Shown: positions 1 through 31,654 of the stretch, one piece after another
Numbering within the stretch: position 1 is the stretch's first letter
How the letters are laid out: every line of letters starts with the position of its first letter
Virus record (IMG/VR): IMGVR_UViG_3300008263_000725
Location: 1-31,654 of that record
Strand: one strand, 5' to 3'
DNA: 31,654 bases
Source: a virus
The notes under the pieces: model-generated
The model's input: the letters and a program-made list of their open reading frames with translations, nothing else
Told to the model about the DNA's origin: nothing
Databases searched by the model: none
Position numbers and translations under genes: made by a program

Positions 1-160
1 CTGACTTTCCTAGAGTGTGCATAGTGTCCCGTCCAACCTGATCTTTTCCGCTTGCTAAACATCCACAATCTGAAATTTCGGCTTCAGTTAAATAAACCCC
101 TGATGTTAGGGCGTATTCGGTGACATAGACTTTTAGCAGTTTTGGTTGTGGATTATTCAT
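1..160 (-). CDS. Small conserved-looking protein, 3' end outside the window
   Basis: An open frame on the minus strand runs from an ATG at 160-158 to the window edge: 53 codons without a stop, starting MNNPQPKLLKVYVTEYAL. The sequence is protein-like, with a YVTEYALTSGVY stretch and two cysteines (DCGC), but I do not recognise a family and assign no function. No good Shine-Dalgarno sequence is visible upstream of the ATG. Its upstream side faces the foldback element at 235-1027, whose internal promoter reads toward it, which would give a leader of about 575 bases. The gene is incomplete, so length and C-terminal domains cannot be judged. Confidence 0.5.
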   Translation of the reverse strand, partial: MNNPQPKLLKVYVTEYALTSGVYLTEAEISDCGCLASGKDQVGRDTMHTLGKS

Positions 161-234
161 TGTAAATTTTTTGGAGGGTTGATTAGCTGTTCCCAGTTTA
201 ACAGAATTTTTCCAAACTGTCAACAGTTGATAAC

Positions 235-1027
235 TGTACTACTTAACCAAAATCAATAAAACTCAATCATATCAAGGGTTTTAACATTTTACACTTTAAA
301 AAACACCATTTTAAAATCAATAAAACTCAGTCATAGTATAGCTTAGACCTGTTTGTACTATGTAGTAGGGGGGATAACTTTATTTTTTTTATCCCTACCC
401 TCTTTAATCATCGCATTTAAATACTAAAAAACATATACAATCTAGAGTGAGCAGATTGAAGCATTTGGAAGCCTCAACGAGTCAAAACTGTTTTTTGCTT
501 TGACAAGGTGGGGGTTTAGACTTTTTCGTTTATCAGCCTTTTCCCACACTTCAGAGCGGGTCATGATACTTTTACCATTAAACTAATTTGTAATGGTCTG
601 AGGGGTAAAAATGGGTAAATGGGTGAATGTGGGCTAATTATATAAAATATATATTTAATTTTTGGTAGGCTGATTTGTGAATACCCTAGGATTAAAGTAT
701 CCTAGTATCCTATCCACCACTCTATTTTTTGATATGTATATAGCATAGCATAGGAATAAACAAAATGTCAAGAGGTAGTGGAAAAATATTTTTGGGGTAA
801 AGGGGGTGGGAGGGAAGAAGGCAAAAAAGCATGAGAGTATTTAAATGCGATAATTAAAGAGGGTAGGGATAAAAAAAATAAAGTTATCCCCCCTACTACA
901 TAGTACAAACGGGTCTAAGCCATACTATGACTGAGTTTTATTGATTTTAAAATGTTGTTTTTAAATTTCTAAAATGTTAAAACCCTTGATATGATTGAGT
1001 TTTATTGATTTTGAGCTAAGTAGTACA
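235..1027 (-). repeat. Foldback element copy 1 with ~190 bp inverted arms
   Basis: The 793 bp unit begins TGTACTACTTA and ends with its complement. The left arm (235 to about 430) matches the reverse complement of the right arm (about 835 to 1027) over nearly its whole length, including the TATCCCTACCCTCTTTAAT segment. Each arm carries two copies of ATCAATAAAACTCA and one TACTATGTAGTA near-palindrome. The unique core holds a conserved ACCATTA...TAATGGT hairpin, a short run of GGGTAAAT repeats and a minus-strand promoter. Related copies lie at 23312-24074 and 26632-27392. It has no protein-coding potential or transposase, and I find no clear target-site duplication. Confidence 0.85.
742..771 (-). 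promoter_or_regulatory. Sigma70-type promoter in the core of foldback copy 1
   Basis: On the minus strand TTGACA (771-766) is followed after 18 bases by TATGCT (747-742). The same boxes with the same spacing occur in the other two copies. It reads leftward through the left arm toward the gene starting at 160. Confidence 0.55.
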
Positions 1028-1134: not shown

Positions 1135-1617
1135 ATGCCCGAAACTTTGCCTAAGACTTCTATAATTGCCCAATTTTTAGATGAAGGGGAACCATTAGGT
1201 ACTTTAATGCTAGATGGGACGGAATATAAAATCACAGCCCCTGAAGATTTATCTGAAGCCGAATATATTGAATATTTTCAAGCTAGAGCAGAAGCTATGG
1301 ATGTTTTGCTTCTTGTTTACGGTGTTGAAAATGAAGATGGAGAACTAATACTTGAAAAAAGTGTAGGTGCTTCAGATTCAGTAAAAAAAGCGAAATTAGA
1401 AGCTTTAATGTATAAACCTGCCCGTCGAATGGTTGAAGCATTGTTAGGAGTACCGGCTGGGACATTTAAACGAAAAAGAAGTAAAACAGTGATGTCATTA
1501 TACAATCATTGTCAACAACTTTTAGAAGAAAAACAAACTGTCGAGCCAGTCAACAAAAAACAAAGTGCTGAGGAAGATTTAGAAGTCCCTTTGGATGGGA
1601 GAATCGAGCAAGAGTAG
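1135..1617 (+). CDS. Putative tail assembly chaperone, upstream frame (gpG-like)
   Basis: This encodes 160 residues, acidic at both ends, with a helical middle (around residues 40-110) and a lysine/arginine patch at residues 110-116. I cannot place it by sequence alone. The call rests on architecture. Its last codons overlap the next frame, and an in-frame slippery heptamer CCCTTTG lies at 1587-1593, read C|CCT|TTG in this frame, with the -1 frame open from 1572 through the following ORF. This is the G/GT layout of tail assembly chaperones in many siphophages (lambda uses GGGAAAG). Normal reading gives the short form; slippage would give a protein of about 264 residues. Oddly, no tape-measure gene follows. 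It could also be an unrelated phage protein pair. Confidence 0.5.
   Translation: MPETLPKTSIIAQFLDEGEPLGTLMLDGTEYKITAPEDLSEAEYIEYFQARAEAMDVLLLVYGVENEDGELILEKSVGASDSVKKAKLEALMYKPARRMVEALLGVPAGTFKRKRSKTVMSLYNHCQQLLEEKQTVEPVNKKQSAEEDLEVPLDGRIEQE
1587..1593 (+). promoter_or_regulatory. Candidate -1 ribosomal frameshift heptamer CCCTTTG
   Basis: It fits the X XXY YYZ pattern in the frame of the upstream ORF (codons GTC CCT TTG). After a -1 slip the ribosome would read CCC TTT and continue in the frame of the ORF ending at 1928. It lies 22 bases upstream of the zero-frame stop. Confidence 0.5.
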
Positions 1618-1928
1618 TGAGATATGTTAACACTCTTATCGATTGTCTACCAATATTCTATAGTTTTGGTATTTCTAGATTAGAACTTTTAAAAATGCGC
1701 CATTGGGAAGTTCTAGAAATCATATCAGGACACTATAAACATCGTGCTAGGTTAGTGCTTGATTTGACCGATGCTGTAACTTTAGGGGCTGGATGGGGTG
1801 ATGCCGAATCTAAAGAACAAATGCAACGTGATTTAGTGGGTAAAGCTGGATTCCCCCGTCGTAAAACGAAAGTACCTAAAAAGTTTACAGGAAAATCTTG
1901 GACTTCTGATTTGATGACCGCCATTTAA
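1617..1928 (+). CDS. Putative tail assembly chaperone extension (gpT-like), probably made by -1 frameshift
   Basis: The frame can be read from a GTG at 1617 that overlaps the preceding stop by one base (TAGTG). That start has no Shine-Dalgarno sequence, and the frame is already open from 1572, so expression as the tail end of a frameshifted fusion is more likely than independent initiation. The 103 residues are hydrophobic at the start, then contain WEVLEIISGHYKHRAR, reminiscent of gpT-type domains, and end in a basic stretch (RRKTKVPKKFTGK). The similarity is from memory and weak. Its job, if the call is right, is to hold the tape-measure protein during tail assembly. The true 5' boundary of the translated segment would be the slippery site at 1587-1593. 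Confidence 0.45.
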   Translation: MRYVNTLIDCLPIFYSFGISRLELLKMRHWEVLEIISGHYKHRARLVLDLTDAVTLGAGWGDAESKEQMQRDLVGKAGFPRRKTKVPKKFTGKSWTSDLMTAI

Positions 1929-1985: not shown

Positions 1986-2528
1986 ATGTCTAAACTAATT
2001 AAATTAACTAATCCTGAAGAAGTTCCTGAGTTAATAAAAGAGGCTATTTGTTATTATAGGGGTTGTTATCCTCAATATTCAGATGCTGAAATAGCCAGAC
2101 GAGTAAATAAAAATCTTGATTGCATTAATATAGACGAAAAACTTGTTTTAGATGTTTTAGAATTAGAGCCAGACCGTCTTTTTAAACATAAATTTGGAGG
2201 AGCGGAATCTGTAAAATTGGGGATACTTTTAGGGGAACTAAAATTTTCAACTTTACACTCTAGAGTCAAATTTTTAACCGAGATAATGATAATGGGTAAA
2301 GAAGGATATGAAGAACAAAAAGCCACTAACAGAGGTGATATTGTTACTTTGACAGCTAAAAACCTCAATGCCTCATTAGAAGCACATAAACAATTAGGAA
2401 TGATTCTCGAAAAAGTTGATTCTCTGACAGAACGGGAAGAAGAAGTTTTTTTAGAAGTTGATGTTTACCCCCAATTTTTACCGACTACTAACCTTGCTTC
2501 TAATGATGAAGACGATGTTTTGAACTGA
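1986..2528 (+). CDS. Unknown phage protein, possible small terminase subunit
   Basis: This encodes 180 residues. Near the N-terminus (about residues 28-45) the sequence YSDAEIARRVNKNLD looks like a helix-turn-helix, followed by a long helical middle and an acidic tail ending DEDDVLN. A DNA-binding N-terminus, helical oligomerisation region and acidic C-terminus in a 150-190 residue protein is the usual plan of small terminases, and TerL lies 1.7 kb downstream on the same strand. I recognise no diagnostic motif, so this is inference from layout; a regulator or another assembly protein is equally possible. The chosen ATG at 1986 gives MSKLIKL; an out-of-frame ATG at 1981 terminates after five codons. 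Confidence 0.4.
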   Translation: MSKLIKLTNPEEVPELIKEAICYYRGCYPQYSDAEIARRVNKNLDCINIDEKLVLDVLELEPDRLFKHKFGGAESVKLGILLGELKFSTLHSRVKFLTEIMIMGKEGYEEQKATNRGDIVTLTAKNLNASLEAHKQLGMILEKVDSLTEREEEVFLEVDVYPQFLPTTNLASNDEDDVLN

Positions 2529-2577: not shown

Positions 2578-3216
2578 ATGGTCAACATTGCAAAAGGTCT
2601 TAAACCCAAGAACCACTCGCAAGCAAAATTCTTACAGTCCATTCGAGAAAATACCATTACGTTAGGAATTGGTGAAGCAGGGACAGGAAAAACGTTATTA
2701 GCCATGTATGCGGCTATTTTAGCTATAAATAATCCTGACTCACCTATTGATTCTATTCTTTATGTCAGACCATTTGTTAATGAACCAGATGAACAAGATA
2801 TTGGGGCTTTACCCGGTGAATACGAGGAAAAAATTGATTTTTTAGGACTTCCTCTTTGGACTAATTTATCTGAAATTTGTTCCCCTGATGAGCTTAGAAA
2901 GTTTAAAACCAGATTAGAAATTTCACATATTGGAAAACTTAAAGGGGCATCATTATCTAACACATTTATTATTTTTGATGAAGCAGAAGATGCGACTCAA
3001 AGACTTTTTAATTGTGTAATCACGAGAATATCACACGGGTCAAAACTTGTTATTATTGGCGACCCATCCCAAAGTAGTCTTTATTGCGGAGGCTTTTTTC
3101 ATGTTGCGGCACATAGATTATTTGATACTCCAGATGTAGGGATTGTTTGGTTTCCTAAAGGTTCCTGTGTAAGACACCCTATAATTCCCCATGTATTAAG
3201 TGCTTTGGCATCTTAA
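2578..3216 (+). CDS. phoH: PhoH-like P-loop ATPase
   Basis: A compact 212-residue ATPase. Walker A is GEAGTGKT at residues 32-39, Walker B is FIIFDEAEDA with Asp134-Glu135, and a sensor-like IGDPSQS follows near residue 163. The YVRPFVN segment after the first strand and the overall length fit the single-domain PhoH family common in cyanophages. The biochemical role of PhoH is uncertain: it is an ATPase linked to RNA metabolism and phosphate stress in bacteria, and in phages its use is unproven. It follows the possible small terminase by about 50 bases, so it may be cotranscribed with it. Downstream it converges on the MazG-like gene; only a minus-strand terminator separates the two. Confidence 0.85.
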   Translation: MVNIAKGLKPKNHSQAKFLQSIRENTITLGIGEAGTGKTLLAMYAAILAINNPDSPIDSILYVRPFVNEPDEQDIGALPGEYEEKIDFLGLPLWTNLSEICSPDELRKFKTRLEISHIGKLKGASLSNTFIIFDEAEDATQRLFNCVITRISHGSKLVIIGDPSQSSLYCGGFFHVAAHRLFDTPDVGIVWFPKGSCVRHPIIPHVLSALAS

Positions 3217-4194: not shown

Positions 4195-7050
4195 ATGTTA
4201 AAAAAGGATAAAACATTAAAGTTATATTTGCACCCAGGTCAACAAACAGTGTTTGTTAGTCCTAAAAGATTTAAAGTATTAGTGAGTTCCCGAAGATACG
4301 GTAAATCGAGACTCATGATAACAATGATTATTGATAAGGCACTAAATTATAAAGGGGCGTATGATAAAGCATCACCACCAGTAGTTTTATTAGGAATGCC
4401 ATCTTTAAAACAAGCCAAACAAATTCATTGGAATCCTTTAGTAAAATTATTAGAGGGGCATCCTGGAATAGAGAGGATTTATAAATCTGAATGTCGAATT
4501 TCATTTAAAGGAAACAAACCAGATATAATTTTAAGGGGTTTAAATGAGGACAATGGGGACAATTGTAGGGGGTTAAAAATTTATTTCGCAGGATTAGATG
4601 AAATGCAAGACGTTAAACCTATAGCATGGACGGAAGTTATTATGCCAGCATTAATTGATACAAAAGGGTCATGTGCTTTATTGACAGGTTGTGTGGCTCC
4701 TAACACCTTTGTCTTACCTAGACAAGGCATGACAGAAATTGTTGAATTTAATCAGGATAGTTGTGCAAAAGAGTATCAACCGCTAAAAGATGTTGAACTT
4801 TATGGACTCAATAATGAATTTCATAAAGCAGATTCTTTTTTTAATAATGGATATACCGATACCAAAATCATCACATCTTCTTTTGGATTCACTTTAGAAG
4901 CTTCTTTAAACCATCCTATTTGGACAAAAAATGGCTGGAAAAAAATGGAAGAACTGAAAGAGGGGGACACAGTGGCTATAGCACATGGTATGGACATTTG
5001 GGGTACTAAAGACCCTATAGATGGTTTCAAAATCAAAAGACAATATGTTCCTAAAACAAAAGGTTGGCTACAACCTAATCAAGGCATGACCAAAGATTTT
5101 GCTTATTTTCTTGGTCTATGGTTTTCTCAAGGAACCCACAAAAAACAAAATGGTAAGTATTACATTTCCGTAAAAACTACTACTCAACAAATGAGAGAGT
5201 TTCTAGAAAGTGGTAAGATTTTAGGGGCTATTTTTAAACAAGATGTAGGAAATGTTTGGTCGTATGTAGATAGCGATTTAGTAGAGTTACTAAAGCATAT
5301 AGGGATGTCCACTGTGAGTCGGAGAAGAAGAACCTTACCATTATGGTTGTTTCAAGGGCGTAAATCTTGGGCTATCTCTTTTATTCAAGGGTATATGGAC
5401 ATTGCTGGTTCGATTGGTACTACAGGTAACAGAGTAGCAAAAATTATCCATTTCACTTGTAATAAAACATTAGCTCAACAATTTCAATTGTTACTTTCTA
5501 ACTTAGGGGTAATTGCAAAAGTATTTTTATTGCCACATGACCCAGAAATGGCTCAATTAGAACTAACTGGTTCACATTTTGATACTTATTGTCAATTAAT
5601 TGGTTTTGGGTCTGATAACAAAAAAACAAGTAGCCTAGGAGTACAAAAGTTAAACCCTCCCGATGAACCGTTTAATTTTAATGACTATTTTTGGGACACT
5701 ATAGAATCAATTAGTGACTCTGAAAATCAGACTTATGATTTTACAGTACCTAACACAAATTCTTTTTGGAGTAACGGGTTTATTAGTCATAATACACCTA
5801 AAGGTTATGGAACTTTTTTTCACAGTTTGTACGAAAATGGTGATAAATACAAAGATTGGGGTGCTTTCCATCGTACAATTTATGACAACCCCTTTATTCC
5901 TCGTGAAGAAATTGAACGTATAAAAGAATCTTTACCAGAAAAAGTATTTAGACAAGAATGTTTGGCTTCTTGGGAAAATTTTGATGGTCAAATTTTTTCT
6001 GCCTTATCTACTGACAATATTATTTCTGATGAGAATTTACCTACTTACTTTGAACAAGTATATTTAGGTGTTGACTGGGGAGATGTCAATCCTGCTTTAG
6101 TTGTGGTGGGTAAAATGGGTAACACTTACTTTATTATTGATTTCTGGGAAAATCCTAACCCTAATACTGCCATTGAACAACGAGTACACAACGACAAAGC
6201 TCTTCAGTTTGTGAGTGAACACAATGTGAGCCGTGCATTTGCTGACCCTTCACAACCCGGTCGAATTTTAACTATGAGAAAGTCTGGGATTCCTAAACTT
6301 ATGGGGGGTTATAACCGTGTTAGTGAAGGTAATGGTATTGTAAACACTTTACTTTATCAAAAACGCTTAATGATAGCCGAATCTTGCAGAAGGGTTTATG
6401 AAGATATGGGAGCATATCATCGGGCATCCAAAGAAGGATTTATTAAAGAAGAAGTCGCTGAATCTCAACAAGACCATCTTTGTTTTGTGGCTGGCACACA
6501 GGTTTTAACAGAAACAGGATGGCAAAATATAGAAAGCCTGAAAGTTAAAGACAAAGTGTGGTCTTCTAATGGTTTAAAAAATATTACTTTCACTGGTTCC
6601 CGATTGGCAGAAACGATAGAAGTTAAAGATTACAATTCTTCTGCTATTGTGCGCTGTACTCCAGACCACCCCTTTTACACGAATAATGGTTTGATAAGTG
6701 CCGAGAACCTTAGTGTTATGAACCATTTAAACCATCTTGACCAATCTCAATGGGAGTCACTTATTGGAATTTCTAATTTAACAGATACTCTATGGTCAAG
6801 TCCAGCCCTAGAATGTGTAGGTAAATGCTCAATAAACCGAGTATATAACATAGAAGTCGAGGAGTCACACAATTACTTCATCAAAATTGGCTCAAACGCA
6901 GTCTTAGTCAGTAATTGCGATGCTTTAAGATATGTGTTAGCAACTTTAGAACACAAAAACATCGAAAACATTATCCCAGAGGGTTCTGTCATTACTACAC
7001 CAGAAAAACCCGTTACAAAGTCTAACTCTTTATTTGCTGGTTTAATTTAA
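4195..7050 (+). CDS. terL: Terminase large subunit (TerL) interrupted by two inteins
   Basis: The 951-residue precursor would be spliced to a 438-residue terminase, a normal TerL length. ATPase motifs are Walker A SSRRYGKS (31-38) and Walker B FAGLDEMQD (Asp135-Glu136). The coupling motif reads LLTG-TPKG once intein 1 is removed. The nuclease domain has VDWGD (Asp627, Asp630), AFADPSQPG and, after removing intein 2, DHL-CDALRY with Asp909. TerL packages DNA into the prohead using ATP and cuts the concatemer. Both inteins interrupt conserved active-site motifs, so activity needs splicing. A terminator-like hairpin follows immediately, and the portal-like gene starts 42 bases downstream. The upstream in-frame limit and the ATG at 4195 (MLKKDK) give a normal N-terminus. 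Confidence 0.92.
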   Translation: MLKKDKTLKLYLHPGQQTVFVSPKRFKVLVSSRRYGKSRLMITMIIDKALNYKGAYDKASPPVVLLGMPSLKQAKQIHWNPLVKLLEGHPGIERIYKSECRISFKGNKPDIILRGLNEDNGDNCRGLKIYFAGLDEMQDVKPIAWTEVIMPALIDTKGSCALLTGCVAPNTFVLPRQGMTEIVEFNQDSCAKEYQPLKDVELYGLNNEFHKADSFFNNGYTDTKIITSSFGFTLEASLNHPIWTKNGWKKMEELKEGDTVAIAHGMDIWGTKDPIDGFKIKRQYVPKTKGWLQPNQGMTKDFAYFLGLWFSQGTHKKQNGKYYISVKTTTQQMREFLESGKILGAIFKQDVGNVWSYVDSDLVELLKHIGMSTVSRRRRTLPLWLFQGRKSWAISFIQGYMDIAGSIGTTGNRVAKIIHFTCNKTLAQQFQLLLSNLGVIAKVFLLPHDPEMAQLELTGSHFDTYCQLIGFGSDNKKTSSLGVQKLNPPDEPFNFNDYFWDTIESISDSENQTYDFTVPNTNSFWSNGFISHNTPKGYGTFFHSLYENGDKYKDWGAFHRTIYDNPFIPREEIERIKESLPEKVFRQECLASWENFDGQIFSALSTDNIISDENLPTYFEQVYLGVDWGDVNPALVVVGKMGNTYFIIDFWENPNPNTAIEQRVHNDKALQFVSEHNVSRAFADPSQPGRILTMRKSGIPKLMGGYNRVSEGNGIVNTLLYQKRLMIAESCRRVYEDMGAYHRASKEGFIKEEVAESQQDHLCFVAGTQVLTETGWQNIESLKVKDKVWSSNGLKNITFTGSRLAETIEVKDYNSSAIVRCTPDHPFYTNNGLISAENLSVMNHLNHLDQSQWESLIGISNLTDTLWSSPALECVGKCSINRVYNIEVEESHNYFIKIGSNAVLVSNCDALRYVLATLEHKNIENIIPEGSVITTPEKPVTKSNSLFAGLI
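4690..5793 (+). other. Intein 1 in TerL (368 residues), with degenerate LAGLIDADG endonuclease domain
   Basis: It starts at Cys166 (CVAPNTFVLPRQG, block A) and ends HN at residue 533, with Thr534 as the +1 extein residue. Block B is EASLNHPIWTKNGW, with the block-B histidine; block F is TYDFTVPNTNSFW. The central part has two LAGLIDADG-like helices, LGLWFSQG and FIQGYMDIAGSIG. The acidic metal-binding positions appear changed to Gln and Ala, so splicing looks intact but homing cleavage is probably lost. Confidence 0.9.
6481..6915 (+). other. Intein 2 in TerL (145-residue mini-intein)
   Basis: It starts at Cys763 (CFVAGTQVLTETG, block A) and ends at Asn907, with Cys908 as the +1 residue. Block B is RCTPDHPFYTNNG and block F is VYNIEVEESHNYFI. 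There is no endonuclease domain. The residue before the terminal Asn is Ser rather than the usual His. It lies directly before the last catalytic Asp of the nuclease domain. Confidence 0.9.
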
Positions 7051-20726: not shown

Positions 20727-20800
<74 letters not shown>

Positions 20801-21018: not shown

Positions 21019-22125
21019 ATGATTAATTTGCCATCAATCCTTCAGTTTATACCTGATTTAAAAATCAGTTTTGGCGTAATTGATTTGCCAAACACGGTTG
21101 ATATGGACGCTCAGGGAACCGCTCAGGTAATTGTCTCCAATCAAGGACAACGACTCGCCAGTGGTTCCGTTACTGTCAACCTGTACATTTCTACTGACGG
21201 TCAGATTGACAAAAACGATGCCTTACTCACCAGTGTCAGCACCAACTTGAACCTAAACGCTGGACAGTCAGTCACCCTAAACTTACCGTATCAAAACAAT
21301 ACTTCAGTCATCGCTCCGGGAGCTTACTTTCTCATTGCTGAAGTTGATACAGATAACCAAATTGCTGAACAACTGGAAACCAATAATGTCATCAGTAAAT
21401 TAGTATCAGGACGCAATACTAATGTCGTCATCGACTGGAATGCAATTGCCTTAAATGCGATTCAAGCTGAGGGCAAAGCAGGGCGAGGCGTTGCGCCAAC
21501 CGTAGGTTCTGGCTTAATGGCACTGGTTTCTACTGCCGTTTATGATACGGTTAATGCCTTCAACACTTTATATCCCTCCTACGCTGTAAATGTAAACGCA
21601 CCAAAAAATGCCTCGTTGGAGGCGGCGGCAGTCGGGGCGGCTTATCGAGTTCTCTCCACTCAATTACCTAAACAAAATAGCTTGTTCTCAGAGCAATTGT
21701 CTAATTCTCTGGCGGAGATTCAGGGCAGTGCCACCGCTAAAAACCAGGGATTTAATTTGGGCATTTTAATAGCCAATCAGAGCATGAATTTACGAGCTAA
21801 TGATGGTTCTAACGACAATACAACTTACACTCCCCCATCTGGAGACTACGTTTGGAAGCCAGAAGTAGATGGAGCCACTGCTGGGGTAGCAGTCGGTGCG
21901 AACTGGGGTAAGGTAACTCCTTGGACAATTGGCAACATTAACCAGTTTGTCTCGCAAAAACAACTTGATGTGATTCTTAATGGCCGTCTCGACAATCCTA
22001 ATGATCAGGGTGCATTGTATGCCCAAGAAATTGAAGAAGTCCGGCTCTACGGTGGATTGCAAAACACTGCTGTCACTACCAATTTACGCAATGCAGACCA
22101 AACAGAAGCCTATTCGCCGCTTTAA
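21019..22125 (+). pseudogene. Vanadium-dependent haloperoxidase, 5' part before a frameshift
   Basis: 368 codons. Residues about 10-125 form a CARDB-like beta domain (DLKISFGVIDLPNTV...VSNQGQRLASGSVTVNLYIS). The following part (VVIDWNAIALNAIQAEGKAGRG, STAVYDTVNAF) is the N-terminal helical region of cyanobacterial vanadium haloperoxidase/PAP2 superfamily proteins. The frame stops at 22125 with YSPL, while similarity continues in the -1 frame (AALNTAQADAVIVAW) from about 22116. All vanadate-binding motifs lie in the downstream part, so this piece alone is inactive. Base use is less AT-rich than in neighbours, suggesting capture from a host genome. It could be a true pseudogene or a sequencing error. 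Confidence 0.75.
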
Positions 22126-22580
22126 ATACCGCACAGGCAGATGCGGTAATCGTCGCTTGGAAAGAGAAATACACTGAACTCCAACCTCGCCCCGATGACA
22201 TAATTGCTGGCGGATTTTCCGCTAACGACGGGATAGCTTCTACTGTCAGCGACCCCAATTGGAAACCTTTGTTATCTGACTTAATGGGTGTTAATTCTCC
22301 TCCTTTCCCTGATTATATGTCGGGTCATTCCGCTATGGGTGGTGCATTTGCTGGTGTGATGACTCACTATTTTGGAGAGAACTATGTGTTTAATGCTGTC
22401 TCTCAAGAACTTCCCGGTGTCGTTCGTAATTTTGATAGCTTTTATGAGGCTGGTCTGGAAAATGCACTAAGCCGTATCTATGGCGGGGTTCACGTTCGAG
22501 AAGCTACTGTTGATTCTTTCAACATGGGATTAGCTGTTGGCAATTTTGCCTCATCAACTTTCAATCCACCACTTGTTTAA
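22116..22580 (+). pseudogene. Vanadium-dependent haloperoxidase, 3' catalytic part
   Basis: This is the continuation in the -1 frame of the 21019 gene. It contains the three vanadate/phosphate site motifs of the haloperoxidase/PAP2 fold: K-x6-RP in KYTELQPRP, SGHSAMGGA and SR-x5-H in SRIYGGVH. Without ribosomal frameshifting it could only start internally, for example at a TTG at 22269, which would omit the first motif. The intact enzyme would oxidise halides with hydrogen peroxide, or act as a related phosphatase. Joined, the two parts would give a protein of about 520 residues, a usual length for the family. Confidence 0.7.
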
Positions 22581-23266: not shown

Positions 23267-23311
23267 TTCTTTTTTCCTTTTTTCTTTTATTTTTAACTTG
23301 AGCGTACCTAC

Positions 23312-24074
23312 TGTACTATTTAACCAAAATCAATAAAACTCAATCATATCAAGGGTTTTAGCGTTTTAGAGTTAAAAAGGCAACATTAAAAAATCAATAA
23401 AACTCAGTCAGGGTATGGCTTTGACCTGTTTGTACTATGTAGTGGGGGGGATAACTTTATTTTTTTTGTCCTTTGCCCTTTTAATCATCGCAGTTTAGGT
23501 ACTAAGAAACCTATAATATATAGAGTGTTTTTGCTTTAACAGAGCGGGGTTTAGACTTTTTCGTATACTACAGACATTCAAATCCACCCACTCCTTGCAG
23601 TTTAGAGCGGGTCATGATACTTTTACCATTAAACGATTTTGTAATGGTCTGAGAGGCAAAAAATGGGTAAATGGGTAAATGGGTAAATGTGGGCTAAATA
23701 TTTAAAATATATATTTAATTTTTGATAGGTTGATTTGTGAATACCCTAGAATTACATACTCTAGTATCCTATCCCCCATTCTATTTTTGCTATGTATCTA
23801 GCATAGCATGGTAATAAACAAAATGTCAAGAAATAGTGGAAAAATATTTTAGGGGTAAAGGGGGAGGGGTGGAACTTTGTTTTAAAGGTAAACTGCGATG
23901 ATTAAAAGGGCAAAGGACAAAAAAAATAAAGTTATCCACCCTACTACATAGTACAAACAGGTCTAAGCCATACCCTGACTGAGTTTTATTGATTTTTAAA
24001 TGGTGCTTTTTTAACCCTAAAATGTTAAAACCCTTGATATGATTGAGTTTTATTGATTTTGGTTAAATAGTACA
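23312..24074 (-). repeat. Foldback element copy 2
   Basis: 763 bp, with outer ends TACTGTACTATTTAACC perfectly inverted. The inner arms contain TTGTCCTTTGCCCTTTTAAT on both sides, differing from copy 1 in the same way on both arms. Four ATCAATAAAACTCA motifs, the ACCATTA...TAATGGT hairpin and three tandem ATGGGTAA units are present. Confidence 0.85.
23800..23829 (-). promoter_or_regulatory. Promoter in the core of foldback copy 2
   Basis: Minus-strand TTGACA (23829-23824), 18 bases, TATGCT (23805-23800). It reads toward the gene starting at 23266. Confidence 0.55.
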
Positions 24075-24172
24075 GTATTCGTATCTGGTTCAACTACGGC
24101 TAAAAGACTACGAAAAGCTGATACGCACAGTATTCGTATCAGGTTCAACTACGGCTCAAAGACTACGAAAAG
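24072..24172 (+). repeat. Two 46-bp direct repeats, period 55 bp
   Basis: The segment 24072-24117 recurs at 24127-24172 with two mismatches. The first copy overlaps the end of foldback element 2 by three bases. Confidence 0.85.
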
Positions 24173-26604: not shown

Positions 26605-26631
26605 CGCTGTCGCTTTGTCAACTTTTTAACC

Positions 26632-27392
26632 TGTACTACCCATCTAAAAATCAATAAAACTCAATCATACCAAAGGTTTTAACGTTTTAGACTTTGAAAA
26701 ACACCATTTAAAAATCAATAAAACTCAGGTACAGTATAGCTTAGACCCGTTTGTACTATGTAGTAGGGGGGATAACTTTATTTTTTTTTATCCCTCACCT
26801 CATTAATCATCGCAGTTTACCGTTAAAACAAAGTTCCACTCCCCCCTTTACCCCTAAAATATTTTTCCACTACCTCTTGACATTTTGTTTATTCCTATGC
26901 TATGCTATATACATAGCAAAAATAGAATGGGGGATAGGATACTAGAGTATTAAATTCTAGGGTATTCACAAATCAACCTTTCAAAAATTAAATATATATA
27001 TTTTAGATATTTAGCCCACATTTAACCATTTACCCATTTTTTGCCTCTCAGACCATTACAAATTCGTTTAATGGTAAAAGTATCATGACTCGCTCTGAAG
27101 TGTGAGAAAAGGCTGGATTTTGAACCCGCTCTGAAAAGAAAGGAAAGGTAGTGTTATGAACCCGCTCTGAAAGGAAGAGAAAAGCTGTGTTTAATTTTGG
27201 AACCTAAACTGCGATGATTAAGGGGGGGGGGGATAAAAAAAAATAAAGTTATCCCCCCTACTACATAGTACAAACGGGTCTAAGCCATACCCTGACTGAG
27301 TTTTATTGATTTTTAAATGGTGTTTTTCAAAGTCTAAAACGTTAAAACCCTTGATATGATTGAGTTTTATTGATTTCAGACCAAGTAGTACA
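26632..27392 (+). repeat. Foldback element copy 3, core inverted
   Basis: 761 bp with the same arms, but the core reads in the opposite direction to copies 1 and 2. The right arm contains a run of 11 G residues (27222-27232). The core has two copies of GAACCCGCTCTGAAA (27121 and 27158 regions). Its outer left end is the least conserved. Confidence 0.85.
26877..26906 (+). promoter_or_regulatory. Promoter in the core of foldback copy 3
   Basis: TTGACA (26877-26882), 18 bases, TATGCT (26901-26906). It reads toward the gene at 27480. Confidence 0.55.
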
Positions 27393-27479
27393 TTTTTAGT
27401 AGCTCAATAGGTTGATTTTCGGTCAACCATGCTAAGATAAATTCTAGATGCTAAACGTACTACAACCCCCAATTTTTCG

Positions 27480-27746
27480 ATGAATACAATCAATGCCACG
27501 CTAATCCTCAAATTTATGGTCAAAACCAAAATCGTAGGAGATACTAAGCAGTTTGCCGTGTTTGCTAATGTTGTTATTACCACGAAACCTTATGTTAGTC
27601 TAAAAGAGGCTATGGAAGAATATTCTTCTCTGATTTCTGAGATGATTGAAAAGATAAAAACAGATTTGGAAAAAGAATACGGCGAAAGGTCTATGGCTTA
27701 TCTAGACACTGTAACGACCACATTTTTCGATTCTAGCAAGTCTTAG
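27480..27746 (+). CDS. Unknown small protein downstream of foldback element 3
   Basis: 88 residues, MNTINATLILKFMVKTKIVGD..., with a beta-rich first half (VVITTKPYVS) and a helical acidic second half (LISEMIEKIKTDLEKEYGE). No family is recognised. It starts 87 bases after the third foldback element, whose internal promoter points at it with a leader of about 567 bases, as for the genes next to the other two copies. A hairpin GGTTGATTTTCGGTCAACC (27420 region) lies between. It converges on the HNH gene, overlapping it by four bases. Confidence 0.6.
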   Translation: MNTINATLILKFMVKTKIVGDTKQFAVFANVVITTKPYVSLKEAMEEYSSLISEMIEKIKTDLEKEYGERSMAYLDTVTTTFFDSSKS

Positions 27747-28024
27747 TCATCAAATCGAGTATCAATCTTATTGCCTTGTGCCAAATTGCAACTAGGACAG
27801 AGCAAAACTAAATTCTTTAAATCAATGGCTAAAGATTTAGTTTGCTCTTCTAATTTAGATATAGGTATTAAATGATGAACATGATACCCATTGTTCAAAT
27901 TATTGAAACAGTTTGGACACATGAACCGTTGTTTTTTCTTCAGGAAATCAATTCCTGTTTTACCAACATTTGATTTTTTCCAATTATTAAATAATTTCCG
28001 ATATTCGTTTTGCTTTTTAGACAT
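27743..28024 (-). CDS. HNH endonuclease
   Basis: 93 residues. It contains CPNC, then HVHHLIPISK, then NLVLLCPSCNLAQGNK: the two zinc-binding CxxC pairs and the HH...N of a complete HNH nuclease domain. A basic N-terminal tail (KKQNEYRKLFNNWKKSN) may bind DNA. Small free-standing HNH proteins in phages act as homing nucleases or help packaging cleavage. Here it is isolated on the minus strand, away from TerL and not inside a host gene, so a homing role is more likely. Three-base spacing to the convergent 27480 gene leaves no terminator. Confidence 0.85.
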   Translation of the reverse strand: MSKKQNEYRKLFNNWKKSNVGKTGIDFLKKKQRFMCPNCFNNLNNGYHVHHLIPISKLEEQTKSLAIDLKNLVLLCPSCNLAQGNKIDTRFDD

Positions 28025-28106
28025 TGGTTTAGATTTTTGAATACTAAGCTATATATGTCCTAAATGCTTTAAATGACTTAGTACAGATATACCGTAAGTA
28101 AAATGC

Positions 28107-28135
28107 TTGACAAATTTTAAAAAATCTGTTTTAAT
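28107..28135 (+). promoter_or_regulatory. Promoter of the 28167 gene
   Basis: TTGACA (28107-28112), 17 bases, TTTAAT (28130-28135). Confidence 0.7.
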
Positions 28136-28166
28136 AGAAAAAAGTTAGCAAAATCCAAAAATCGTC

Positions 28167-28952
28167 ATGTCAAAAAAAGTTTTTGTAGATTTGGGTAATT
28201 TAGTCACTCCAAGCTTGCTAGAATTGTACGAAGAATTATCCCTTGATAAGTCAGGCCTTAGCGAAGCATCACAAATTGAATCAGGAGACATCTATTGTTT
28301 TGACTTTAAGAATTTGCCAATTCTATCTTGCAAAGAGGTTGACTGGCACAGAGACTGGGAAGAGCATAGTCTTTTGTGGATATTAGAGTCACATGGTCAC
28401 ATTTTCCAATTAGAGAATAAAGTCTCTGGAAAAATTATTTCTAAAAAACTTAAATTTGGGGATTTGATTTGTTTCAATCTTGACCTTAATCATCGATTAA
28501 TAAATAGTGATAGTGTTAGTAACCCACTTTTTGTCACTTTATCTTGGGATTTAGCGGCGTTTCAGCTTCCCAACGGTTATAATATTAAAAAATGGGAAGA
28601 CATAGCTCGTATCTTATTAAAAGAGAAAGTAGAAAGCAGAGGGTTCAAAGGGGTAAACGGTTTAGTCAATCATTTTGCTAAAATCCCCTCTAAAAGTGTT
28701 GTTTTAACCCAGTGGGAACGTTTACCTAACTCTGAAACCGAAGTTTTGCGAGAATGTAATAAGCCTTTAAAAACGCCTTATATTTGGGCGAAATTGAGTC
28801 CTTATTACTCCAGATTCAGAGTTTTGCCTTACAGTGAGCAAGACTACCTCAATTGGTTTAAGCTATCTTCTCCCCGTCAACAAAATTACGCCAAATGCAA
28901 AAAACAAATTGAAGAATATTTAGGTTTAGGTAAGCATTTGGTCGTTCAGTAA
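28167..28952 (+). CDS. Unknown protein with an HxD...H pattern (possible Fe/2-oxoglutarate dioxygenase fold)
   Basis: 261 residues. In the first half, WHRDWEEHSLLWILES has His61-x-Asp63 and the later FNLDLNHRLIN supplies His109, with glycine-led beta strands between (HGHIFQLENK, LKFGDLICFNLD). This HxD...H spacing of about 46 residues fits the iron site of double-stranded beta-helix dioxygenases, but the arginine that binds 2-oxoglutarate is not certain, so a cupin or unrelated fold remains possible. The C-terminal half is helical and unassigned. It has its own promoter, and the DNA methyltransferase gene follows 30 bases later, so a joint role in DNA modification is conceivable. Confidence 0.6.
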   Translation: MSKKVFVDLGNLVTPSLLELYEELSLDKSGLSEASQIESGDIYCFDFKNLPILSCKEVDWHRDWEEHSLLWILESHGHIFQLENKVSGKIISKKLKFGDLICFNLDLNHRLINSDSVSNPLFVTLSWDLAAFQLPNGYNIKKWEDIARILLKEKVESRGFKGVNGLVNHFAKIPSKSVVLTQWERLPNSETEVLRECNKPLKTPYIWAKLSPYYSRFRVLPYSEQDYLNWFKLSSPRQQNYAKCKKQIEEYLGLGKHLVVQ

Positions 28953-28981
28953 TTTTTCTAAAATAGCTAATAAGAGGTTTT

Positions 28982-29986
28982 ATGGTTTCAAATAGTTTCA
29001 AGTTTATCGACTTATTTGCGGGAATTGGCGGTTTTCGTCTTGCTTTAAGTAGTTTGGGTGGTGAGTGTGTATTTAGTTCGGAAATAGACAAGTTTTGCCA
29101 AAAAACGTATTTTGCAAATTTTGACAAGACCTTTGATAATTTAGACATTCGGGATTTAAACCCTGAAACTATTCCCGATTTTGATATACTGACTGCTGGG
29201 TTTCCATGTCAACCTTTTTCAACGGCTGGTAAAAGGTTAGGATTTCAAGATAAACGGGGTAATCTGTTTTTTGATATTGTCAAAGTTTTAAAGGCTAAAA
29301 GACCTAAAGCCTTTATTTTGGAAAATGTTAAAGGTTTAGTCTCTATTGAACGGGGAAAAACTTTAAAAACTATTTTGTCCAGCTTAAGAGAGGAGTTGGG
29401 CTATTTTGTCCCTGAACCAGAAATCTTGAATGCCCGCAACTTTTCAGTACCTCAAAATCGCCCTCGTGTTTTTATTGTAGGTTTTGAACCTAGCGTCGAA
29501 GCTTCTTGTAAATATCACTGGTTTAACTATCCCACTCCCGTAACCAGTAACCCTCACCTTCGTTTCATTTTAGAGACGGAACCCGTTGATTTGAAATACT
29601 ACCTAAACGAAGGTTATTGGCAAAGTTTACAGGCTCACAAATCACGCCATTTGGAATTGGGTAACAACTTTGGGTACGAAATACTTGACAAAGAGGATTG
29701 CTCTAATGCTATAATGGTTGGAGGTCAGGGGAGAGAGCGCAATCTTATTATAGATAATAATCATCCTTCTAATTATCCCCCTGAAAAAAATAGTCGTTTC
29801 ATTCGCTTTTTGACCCCTCGTGAATGGGCAAGATTGCAAGGATTTCCTGATTCTTTTCAAATTGTAGTGTCTGACACACAAGCCTATAAACAATTTGGTA
29901 ATTCTGTTGCTGTTCCTGTTGTCAAAGCTGTTGCCCGTAAAGTATTGTTAAAACTATACGGAAAGCCTTTCCTTCATGTCCACTAA
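28982..29986 (+). CDS. dcm: C5-cytosine DNA methyltransferase
   Basis: 334 residues, with all key motifs of the family in order: FIDLFAGIGGFRLAL (motif I), SSEIDKFC (II), FPCQPFS with catalytic Cys76 (IV), ILENVKGL (VI), QNRPRVFIVGF (VIII), a variable target-recognition region about residues 185-255, then LTPREWARLQGFPDSF (IX) and YKQFGNSVAVPVV (X). It transfers a methyl group from S-adenosylmethionine to cytosine C5. No cognate restriction nuclease is adjacent; the nearby HNH protein is separated and on the other strand. A lone phage methyltransferase usually protects phage DNA from host restriction. GAGG lies just upstream of the ATG. Confidence 0.95.
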   Translation: MVSNSFKFIDLFAGIGGFRLALSSLGGECVFSSEIDKFCQKTYFANFDKTFDNLDIRDLNPETIPDFDILTAGFPCQPFSTAGKRLGFQDKRGNLFFDIVKVLKAKRPKAFILENVKGLVSIERGKTLKTILSSLREELGYFVPEPEILNARNFSVPQNRPRVFIVGFEPSVEASCKYHWFNYPTPVTSNPHLRFILETEPVDLKYYLNEGYWQSLQAHKSRHLELGNNFGYEILDKEDCSNAIMVGGQGRERNLIIDNNHPSNYPPEKNSRFIRFLTPREWARLQGFPDSFQIVVSDTQAYKQFGNSVAVPVVKAVARKVLLKLYGKPFLHVH

Positions 29987-30018
29987 TCTTGAGCCTGAAA
30001 CTATCCCCCTCTAAAACT

Positions 30019-30312
30019 ATGTATCAACATATTAAGCCTCTTGACCAGTCTTTAACTCCGTTTTTGACCTATTTCTTTCAAGTTGAAAAAACCCAGTGCC
30101 TCTGCTACCGTATGCCGTCTCACCCAGACGGCTGGGTAATACAAGGTTTAGGTGAGCTAAAATACCAGCCAGAATACCAAAAATCTGTGAATGTTATTGA
30201 TTCTACTTTACCTAAATTCACTTCAACCCCTGAAAATTTTGATTCTGGAATTGTTGTGTCCGTAGTCTGTCTTAATGTAATTTTATCTGCGTTCATTCGT
30301 TTCCTAAACTGA
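30019..30312 (+). CDS. Unknown small protein
   Basis: From ATG 30019 this encodes 97 residues (MYQHIKPLDQSL); an in-frame TTG at 29989 would add ten residues. The middle has WVIQGLGELKYQPEYQKSVNV and the last 20 residues are hydrophobic (VVCLNVILSAFIRFL), possibly a C-terminal membrane anchor. No family is recognised. A short frame at 29976 (MSTNLEPETIPL) overlaps the end of the methyltransferase gene and could be a coupling peptide. It lies between dcm and the helicase and may share their transcript. Confidence 0.45.
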   Translation: MYQHIKPLDQSLTPFLTYFFQVEKTQCLCYRMPSHPDGWVIQGLGELKYQPEYQKSVNVIDSTLPKFTSTPENFDSGIVVSVVCLNVILSAFIRFLN

Positions 30313-30360
30313 GTTTCAATCAAAATTCGCTTTTTTCCATTCAACAAGGAGTTTTTCATT

Positions 30361-31654
30361 ATGTCAACGTCTGTAGCTATCGAAACCACACCCCTTCAAT
30401 TAACAGAAGACCAAAAGTTAGCTCTCGAAGATTTAGAACGTTGGTGGGTTTCAAAAAAGGGGGAACATTTAATTTCTGGAGGGGCTGGTACTGGTAAAAC
30501 CACTTTAATCGCTCATTGGATACAGTCACACCCTAATCTAAAAATTGCTATTTTATGTCCTACCAATAAAGCGGCTTCTGTCCTTAAAGAAAAGTTGACA
30601 TTTAAAGCAGATGTTTATACTATTCATGCCATTTTAGGACTTGTGATTCAAGAAAAAGGTGGGCAGTACAAAATGAAAGGTGTCCGAGTTACCAGAGACT
30701 CCGAAAAATCTACTTTAGATACCGGTAACTCTAAATTTGACACTAACCATTACCAGTTAATTATCGTTGATGAAGTTTCTATTCTTTCTAAGGATATGGA
30801 GTGTCGTTTAAGGGAAAAAGCGTCCCAAATCAAAGCTAAAATTCTTTGGGTTGGTGATTCTTGTCAACTACCCCCACCTGGTCAAAAAGCTAGTAATGTT
30901 TTTAATTGCGGTAGCAGTTCTATTTTAGAACAAGTCATGCGTTATGATGCTGGTGTTCTTAAAATTGCTGAACATCTTCGGAAACTCATTAATGTCCATG
31001 ACTCCCAAAAGCCAACGTTAAAGTCTATTATTGATAAACAATTGGTTTTAGACTCTGATTTGCACAATGTTGAACTTATTTCTGCTAATGAATGGTATGA
31101 AAAGCTAAAAAATACTGTAGTTTCAGAAAATATTGAGTTCAAAATATTAGCTCATAAAAACGATAAAGTTTGTCATTATAACGAACTTATTCGTTCGATA
31201 AAAGGTATCGCTAATAAACCCTTTGCTGATGGCGAACAACTTATCAGTTTACGCCGTAATAACTACTTTAAATATGTTAACCGTACTAATAAAGTTGCCA
31301 ATTTTGTTAATGGTGAAATCGTTTCCATCCTTAGTTCTCATTTTTCAACTTCCAAACTTTGTGACCCATTTAAAGAGAAAGAAATCGACATTTTTGATGC
31401 TAAAGAATTAGTGGAATTTACTCTTAATTTTCACAAAATGTCCAACTTTACTGTTGAAGTTTGGGATACTACTGTTCAATCTTTAGACAGAGATTTACAG
31501 TGGACGGTTTCTTTTATTGACCCTCGCAATAACGATAAAATGATTCAGGTCATGAATCGTTCTATAACTTTGCAAGAAGAATTGAAGGATTTAACAGCCA
31601 TTCTTTATTGTATCGATGGTTTAATCTCTGGCATAATTCCTAAAGTTCAAGACC
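30361..31654 (+). CDS. RecD/Dda-like SF1 helicase, 3' end outside the window
   Basis: This runs 431 codons from ATG 30361, which has AAGGAG ten bases upstream, to the window end without a stop. Walker A is GGAGTGKT (40-47), motif Ia is CPTNKAASVL, motif Ib region YTIHAILG, Walker B is IIVDEVS (Asp137-Glu138), and motif III is WVGDSCQLPPPG. These are hallmarks of the SF1B 5'-3' helicases RecD and T4 Dda, with an inserted segment of about 35 residues before Walker B. It probably unwinds DNA during phage replication initiation and recombination. Motifs V and VI should lie beyond the window. It is not fused to a nuclease in the visible part. Confidence 0.9.
   Translation, partial: MSTSVAIETTPLQLTEDQKLALEDLERWWVSKKGEHLISGGAGTGKTTLIAHWIQSHPNLKIAILCPTNKAASVLKEKLTFKADVYTIHAILGLVIQEKGGQYKMKGVRVTRDSEKSTLDTGNSKFDTNHYQLIIVDEVSILSKDMECRLREKASQIKAKILWVGDSCQLPPPGQKASNVFNCGSSSILEQVMRYDAGVLKIAEHLRKLINVHDSQKPTLKSIIDKQLVLDSDLHNVELISANEWYEKLKNTVVSENIEFKILAHKNDKVCHYNELIRSIKGIANKPFADGEQLISLRRNNYFKYVNRTNKVANFVNGEIVSILSSHFSTSKLCDPFKEKEIDIFDAKELVEFTLNFHKMSNFTVEVWDTTVQSLDRDLQWTVSFIDPRNNDKMIQVMNRSITLQEELKDLTAILYCIDGLISGIIPKVQD

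Follow-up and report, generated by a model that had tools for sequence, protein, structure and literature searches.

Two overlapping reading frames near the left end of a viral contig raise the question of whether they form one gene or two, and of which task their products would serve. The window, that is the whole stretch of DNA analysed here, comprises 31,654 nt (IMG/VR record IMGVR_UViG_3300008263_000725, positions 1 to 31,654). On its plus strand, ORF1 (1135..1617) encodes a G-like zero-frame product of 160 aa and terminates at a TAG at 1615-1617. Near its 3′ end lies the heptamer CCCTTTG (1587-1593, plus strand), and the −1 frame is uninterrupted between a TGA at 1569-1571 and a TAA ending at 1928, which leaves 1572 to 1928 open. 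The original prediction proposed a programmed −1 frameshift in a tail chaperone gene. Its placement of the heptamer in the correct frame is borne out by the ORF1 codons GTC CCT TTG, which give the slip phase C_CCT_TTG, and the limits that it gave for the open −1 frame agree with the sequence. Slippage at this site would join 153 residues of ORF1 to a T-like extension of 111 aa (1593..1928, plus strand) in a predicted fusion of 264 aa. The predicted tryptic peptide of the fusion is QSAEEDLEVPLGWENR (or ...EVPFGWENR), and its zero-frame counterpart is QSAEEDLEVPLDGR.

The window is a relative of Mic1, a long-tailed siphophage infecting Microcystis aeruginosa (PMC7156551), and aligns to the Mic1 genome over most of its length (about 80-98%). 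ORF1 is 98% identical to Mic1_94 and the −1 part is 96% identical to its Mic1 counterpart. Mic1_94 and Mic1_95 are thus direct homologues that differ in annotation: the Mic1 record lists both as hypothetical proteins and begins the second at an internal ATG, which leaves Mic1_95 with no more than the C-terminal 77 residues of the −1 ORF. When viral contigs were scanned with ORF1, the −1 part, gp96 or phoH, the same two clades came back each time. Clade 1 is Mic1-like and includes the window; protein identity between it and clade 2 is about 53% for ORF1 and 67-68% for the −1 part. Within the collections searched, scans with the clade-2 −1 part, gp96 and phoH revealed no third clade. Relatives were found neither in genome contigs (two scans) nor among plasmids, and Mic1 was the sole phage with meaningful scores in the phage collection. 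Leptolyngbya phage Lbo402-yong5, an outgroup candidate with portal similarity of the 31% class, and CrV-01T were both absent from the tblastn matches of ORF1 and of the clade-2 −1 part.

Several other features of the window were recorded along the way. Compared with Mic1 (window 1-432 and 27236-31654), the block from gp18 to gp93 is inverted, with breakpoints in repeated elements, and at the gp18/gp94 junction five clade-1 contigs are arranged like the window. An element of about 770-800 bp is present in three copies (232-1027, 23310-24076 and 26628-27398), bounded by terminal inverted repeats of about 190 bp that begin near TGTACTA; the terminal repeat recurs at 13 further places in Mic1 pieces. 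The three copies have the look of non-autonomous, MITE-type elements, here carried by a phage. The stretches 21019-22125 and 22269-22580 encode, in different frames, a CARDB and vanadium-chloroperoxidase-like N-terminal part and a PAP2 part; this CARDB/PAP2 haloperoxidase-like gene appears to be broken and lies in a stretch without a Mic1 match. A tRNA-Met(CAT) gene occupies 20727-20800.

A slippery heptamer by itself is unremarkable. Across 19 long ORFs of the window, 71 of 7,261 codon positions carry a heptamer of the form X_XXY_YYZ (Y = A/T), which gives a chance of about 13% of meeting at least one within the 14-codon overlap. The evidential weight comes instead from the retention of the heptamer and from −1-frame protein conservation that starts at the slip site. 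CCCTTTG is in phase in 18 of 18 sources (the window, Mic1 and 16 contigs), each with a −1 ORF of 113 codons, and contig 3300032050_014824 brings the count of records that hold the site in this phase to 19 of 19. Two contigs that end before it (3300028429_000482 and 3300015613_000463) fall outside this count. With 11 distinct sequences among the 18 and only two clades, the 19 records do not amount to 19 independent observations. The clade-2 contig L045 has another CCCTTTGGAT match at position 3112, with a long open frame; it sits in unrelated sequence and was put down to chance. From the first codon of the heptamer onward, both clades agree in the −1 frame (PFG-[WF]-[EQ]-NRARV), and this agreement begins upstream of every usable start codon. 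Directly 5′ of the heptamer the −1 frame is unconserved, and most clade-1 sequences have a stop in it 15 nt ahead of the site. Transcriptional slippage was ruled out because the site has no long homopolymer. From these comparisons, programmed −1 ribosomal frameshifting at C_CCT_TTG, giving products of 160 and 264 aa, is almost certainly how the two frames would be expressed.

Candidate stimulatory elements flank the slip site. A stem-loop is predicted 8 nt 3′ of the heptamer (1602..1644, plus strand; arms 1602-1607:1639-1644 and 1610-1615:1632-1637), with the ORF1 stop codon inside it. In the window, the 62-nt segment holding it folds at −18.1 kcal/mol (z −3.07), and a sliding scan of the ORF1-to-ORF2 stretch places the best 52-nt fold of the window at a start of 1598. 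The same arms fold in clade 2 after a 9-nt spacer, at a z of −1.15 that is no better than shuffles, and the segment that begins at the stem ranks 157 of 736 in the same scan. The stem arms are nearly invariant, which leaves too little variation for covariation to show; the sole pair changed on both sides belongs to the weak inner helix. Codons for identical residues are changed at 3 of 15 positions from the slip site to the end of the stem versus 29 of 58 beyond it (Fisher p 0.045), a difference that is partly explained by the first ten codons being constrained by the ORF1 overlap as well. Upstream, AGGAAG (1571..1576, plus strand) resembles a weak Shine-Dalgarno sequence 10 nt 5′ of the slip site, where clade 2 has AGGAGG. 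The best duplex of the window's version reaches −5.6 kcal/mol, matched by 15% of ORF 24-mers, while the clade-2 version reaches −10.3 kcal/mol, matched by 1.3%; the element is therefore strong in clade 2 only. The combination of an upstream Shine-Dalgarno-like element, a heptamer and a downstream stem-loop recalls the three-part cassettes of the dnaX type, in which the Shine-Dalgarno-like element sits about 10 nt upstream of the heptamer. The heptamer and the gene differ from those of dnaX, and clade 1, to which the window belongs, has a weak upstream element.

In the favoured model, ORF1 and the −1 ORF would constitute a single gene whose two products arise through a programmed −1 frameshift at C_CCT_TTG. 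Most ribosomes would run to the TAG ending at 1617 and release the 160-aa protein. A minority, stalled before the 1602-1644 hairpin and aided by the upstream AGGAAG or AGGAGG, would slip back to pair with CCC TTT in the −1 frame, producing the 264-aa fusion with its 111-aa C-terminal domain. The short form would coat the tape-measure protein, like lambda gpG, and the rare long form would recruit tail-tube subunits via its extra domain, like lambda gpGT. The heptamer, its phase, the conservation, the loss of alternative starts and the predicted hairpin come from the sequences; from them we infer frameshifting in vivo, its efficiency, the roles of the stimulators and the chaperone function. As a whole, the reading of the frameshift-made pair as tail assembly chaperones of the G/GT type is probably correct, being the best, if unproven, account of the locus.

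The comparison with known systems makes this reading plausible through layout and biology and not through a family match. According to a review, −1 G-T frameshifting is widely conserved in long-tailed double-stranded DNA phages; gpG and the G part of gpGT bind the tape measure, and T recruits the tail tube protein (PMC5009743). Mutants of phage TP901-1 also bear on the roles of G/GT chaperones (PMC4493119). The pair resembles the gpG/gpGT proteins of lambda and TP901-1 in its short upstream ORF, its X_XXY_YYZ heptamer near the 3′ end of that ORF, its −1-frame C-terminal extension and the long non-contractile tail of the phage, an arrangement expected of G/GT pairs. It differs from them in the heptamer itself (GGGAAAG in TP901-1 versus CCCTTTG; PMC4493119), in its lack of detectable sequence similarity, in its predicted downstream hairpin, in the strong upstream Shine-Dalgarno sequence of clade 2 and in its position, which is not beside a tape-measure gene. 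The virion-protein regions named in PMC7156551 do not take in ORF94/95, as would be expected of a chaperone, an observation that is compatible with the function and no stronger than that.

Searches for protein identity gave little to build on. The comparison of both ORFs with tail chaperone families that had been put forward with the original prediction yielded no significant match, and neither ORF1 nor the −1 part has one in Pfam, PHROGs or PDB sequences. Under loose limits, phrog_9475 appears below threshold in 5 of 8 members (best E 0.047) and DUF6760 (PF20546) in 3 of 8 (best E 0.018); the other sub-threshold Pfam and PHROGs rows have no bearing on identity. Membership in DUF6760 was rejected at 15.5 bits against a curated cut-off of 27, with none of four records above it. 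Against the four whole records, this profile gave the sole row in two (E 0.0011 and 0.0014, below the cut-off), and 5 of 14 control genomes gave a row with it as well. Phage_P2_GpE (PF06528) was likewise rejected, with no profile match in any of the four records. Profile searches of solved structures with both parts returned nothing of use. The AlphaFold models are poor (mean pLDDT 45.7 and 56.9, from nine and eight alignment rows). Foldseek against BFVD matched the ORF1 model to a 98%-identical protein of 160 aa, evidently that of Mic1 itself, and all other rows have E values of 0.08 and more. Among the 49 non-self rows of this low-confidence model, three are named tail assembly chaperone (ranks 2, 5 and 14; E 0.08-0.38), which hints at the predicted function without proving it. 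For the −1 part, none of 19 rows carries that name and none is useful. In the fold searches, for which the models are too poor, the best VIA Z, 5.1, was to a calmodulin-binding segment. The original prediction of a −1-frameshifted tail chaperone therefore divides: the frameshift is well supported, but the chaperone identity has no significant family match behind it and the pair does not lie beside a tape-measure gene.

The neighbourhood of the pair is where the alternatives for its function arise. Downstream of the −1 ORF, a homologue of gp96 of unknown function (1986..2528, plus strand) adjoins the pair in both clades; its earlier description as small terminase-like found no support in Pfam or PHROGs. 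It is followed by a PhoH-like ATPase (2578..3216, plus strand; E 1.3e-40), as had been predicted, and the statement that no tape-measure gene follows is right for the window. Further on, at 4195-7050, lies a terminase large subunit gene with two inteins, one with a LAGLIDADG part; a two-intein terminase large subunit has already been published for Mic1 (PMC7156551). Tail genes are less constant in position. Of 14 loci, five (L034-L037 and L040) place the tail-tube gene gp20 upstream of ORF1 at a distance of 1.3-1.7 kb and in the same orientation; the 14 include two clade-1 loci (L033 and L038) ending before the gp20 position, and seven clade-2 loci have gp6 upstream instead. In three whole records (G002, G004 and G005), capsid gp40 is followed by gp34 and then by gp20, all on the same strand as the pair. 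Two others (G001 and G003) carry these genes on the opposite strand, gp20 lying about 13 kb past the pair, and in G006 a whole-record search for gp40, gp34 and gp20 gave no match. Since gp34 adjoins the tape-measure gene in Mic1, it served as a proxy for the tape-measure position in these contigs, which is thus indirect. In Mic1 itself the tape-measure gene (gp35) is about 45 kb from the pair in record coordinates, on the other strand. The customary G/GT position between the major tail protein and the tape-measure gene is accordingly not the one observed, and with its gene away from that position the pair is classed as G/GT-like in its mode of action and is not counted among the established members.

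The same maps bear on a reading in which the −1 frameshift is real and the proteins serve head assembly or DNA packaging. Its main attraction is that the pair stays with gp96 and phoH throughout, and then terL, in both clades, whereas the tail-tube gene moves from upstream in the five clade-1 loci to the downstream site on the other strand in G001 and G003; the silence of the tail-chaperone profiles fits it too. Head protein families, however, do not match the pair either, and frameshift fusions of such a layout are mostly tail chaperones; in the PRFect training set, drawn from SEA-PHAGES genomes, these make up 2,397 of 2,476 genes annotated as frameshifted (PMC10885494). We regard a head or packaging role as unlikely. 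A related conception, which we hold to be rather improbable, is a stand-alone frameshift cassette bound to gp96-phoH-terL, and no longer to the tape-measure gene, with a three-part signal of the dnaX kind; its products may act in packaging or in the assembly of heads, or may link packaging to tail assembly, in place of a plain chaperone task.

It has also been considered whether gp18 and gp19 of Mic1, and not gp94/95, are the tail chaperones, a proposal that is compatible with a G/GT-like role of the pair. These proteins are called chaperones for tail assembly in the Mic1 transcriptome paper (PMC11237433), and in the clade-1 contigs L034-L037 and L040 gp18/gp19-like genes sit between gp20 and ORF1. 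In the loci examined they lie on the strand opposite to the tail genes; their sole above-chance match is phrog_22725, of unknown function, and a frameshift scan gave no candidate there. A non-significant Prefoldin match of gp19 (E 0.07) is possibly the origin of the chaperone label. We regard the proposal as unlikely. The 5′ part of a gp18-like gene, which belongs to the phrog_22725 family in Mic1 and has the paralogue gp19, occupies positions 2-223 of the window (minus strand); as the window begins inside this gene, the tail-tube gene probably lies just beyond its left edge. Mic1 gp38 was also tried as an alternative chaperone and dropped, having no tail-chaperone match.

Beyond function, the two frames might be separate genes, the second translated from GTG 1617 by coupling at TAGTG or from ATG 1695 as annotated in Mic1. 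The window does contain the overlap of the ORF1 stop with GTG (1617..1619, plus strand), which is the only canonical initiation codon that the −1 ORF offers after the slip site and ahead of ATG 1695, and the Mic1 record starts its second gene at ATG. This GTG is replaced by GTA in Mic1 and by AAT in clade 2, which makes a separate gene very unlikely. The Mic1 −1 ORF has no canonical start before residue 37, and in clade 2 the starts at codons 14, 27 and 37 fall inside or after conserved −1-frame sequence. Initiation at ATG 1695 would cost the protein 36 residues, of which 24 are the same in the two clades, and the conservation extends from the slip site, ahead of any start. Neither GTG 1617 nor ATG 1695 has a Shine-Dalgarno sequence. 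The original prediction had pointed to the poor GTG start; the observation stands, but it is weak evidence, because the starts of ORF1, gp96 and phoH lack a Shine-Dalgarno sequence as well. Both clades were checked for the refuting case named with the original prediction, homologues whose second ORF stands alone as a gene with a start codon of its own, and none occurred. Two separate genes are in our view most improbable. A broken single gene or a sequencing error, whose change of frame would look alike in one sequence, is practically dismissed by the same arrangement in 19 of 19 records, with 11 distinct sequences among 18 and both frames conserved.

A literature search on cyanophage tail assembly chaperones and cyanophage programmed frameshifting found no earlier description of the Mic1-type frameshift, and the main text of the two Mic1 papers leaves ORF94/gp94 unmentioned and makes no frameshift claim for Mic1 (PMC7156551, PMC11237433). 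In this virus of bloom-forming cyanobacteria, a −1 slip very probably lets one gene yield two proteins. Two genes listed as "hypothetical" in Mic1, the model siphophage of Microcystis, thereby gain a likely role, and the truncated annotation of Mic1_95 is corrected. The displaced gene position is the one unusual feature of the Mic1-type frameshift gene, and the displaced cassette offers a test of whether adjacency to the tape-measure gene matters for tail chaperones.
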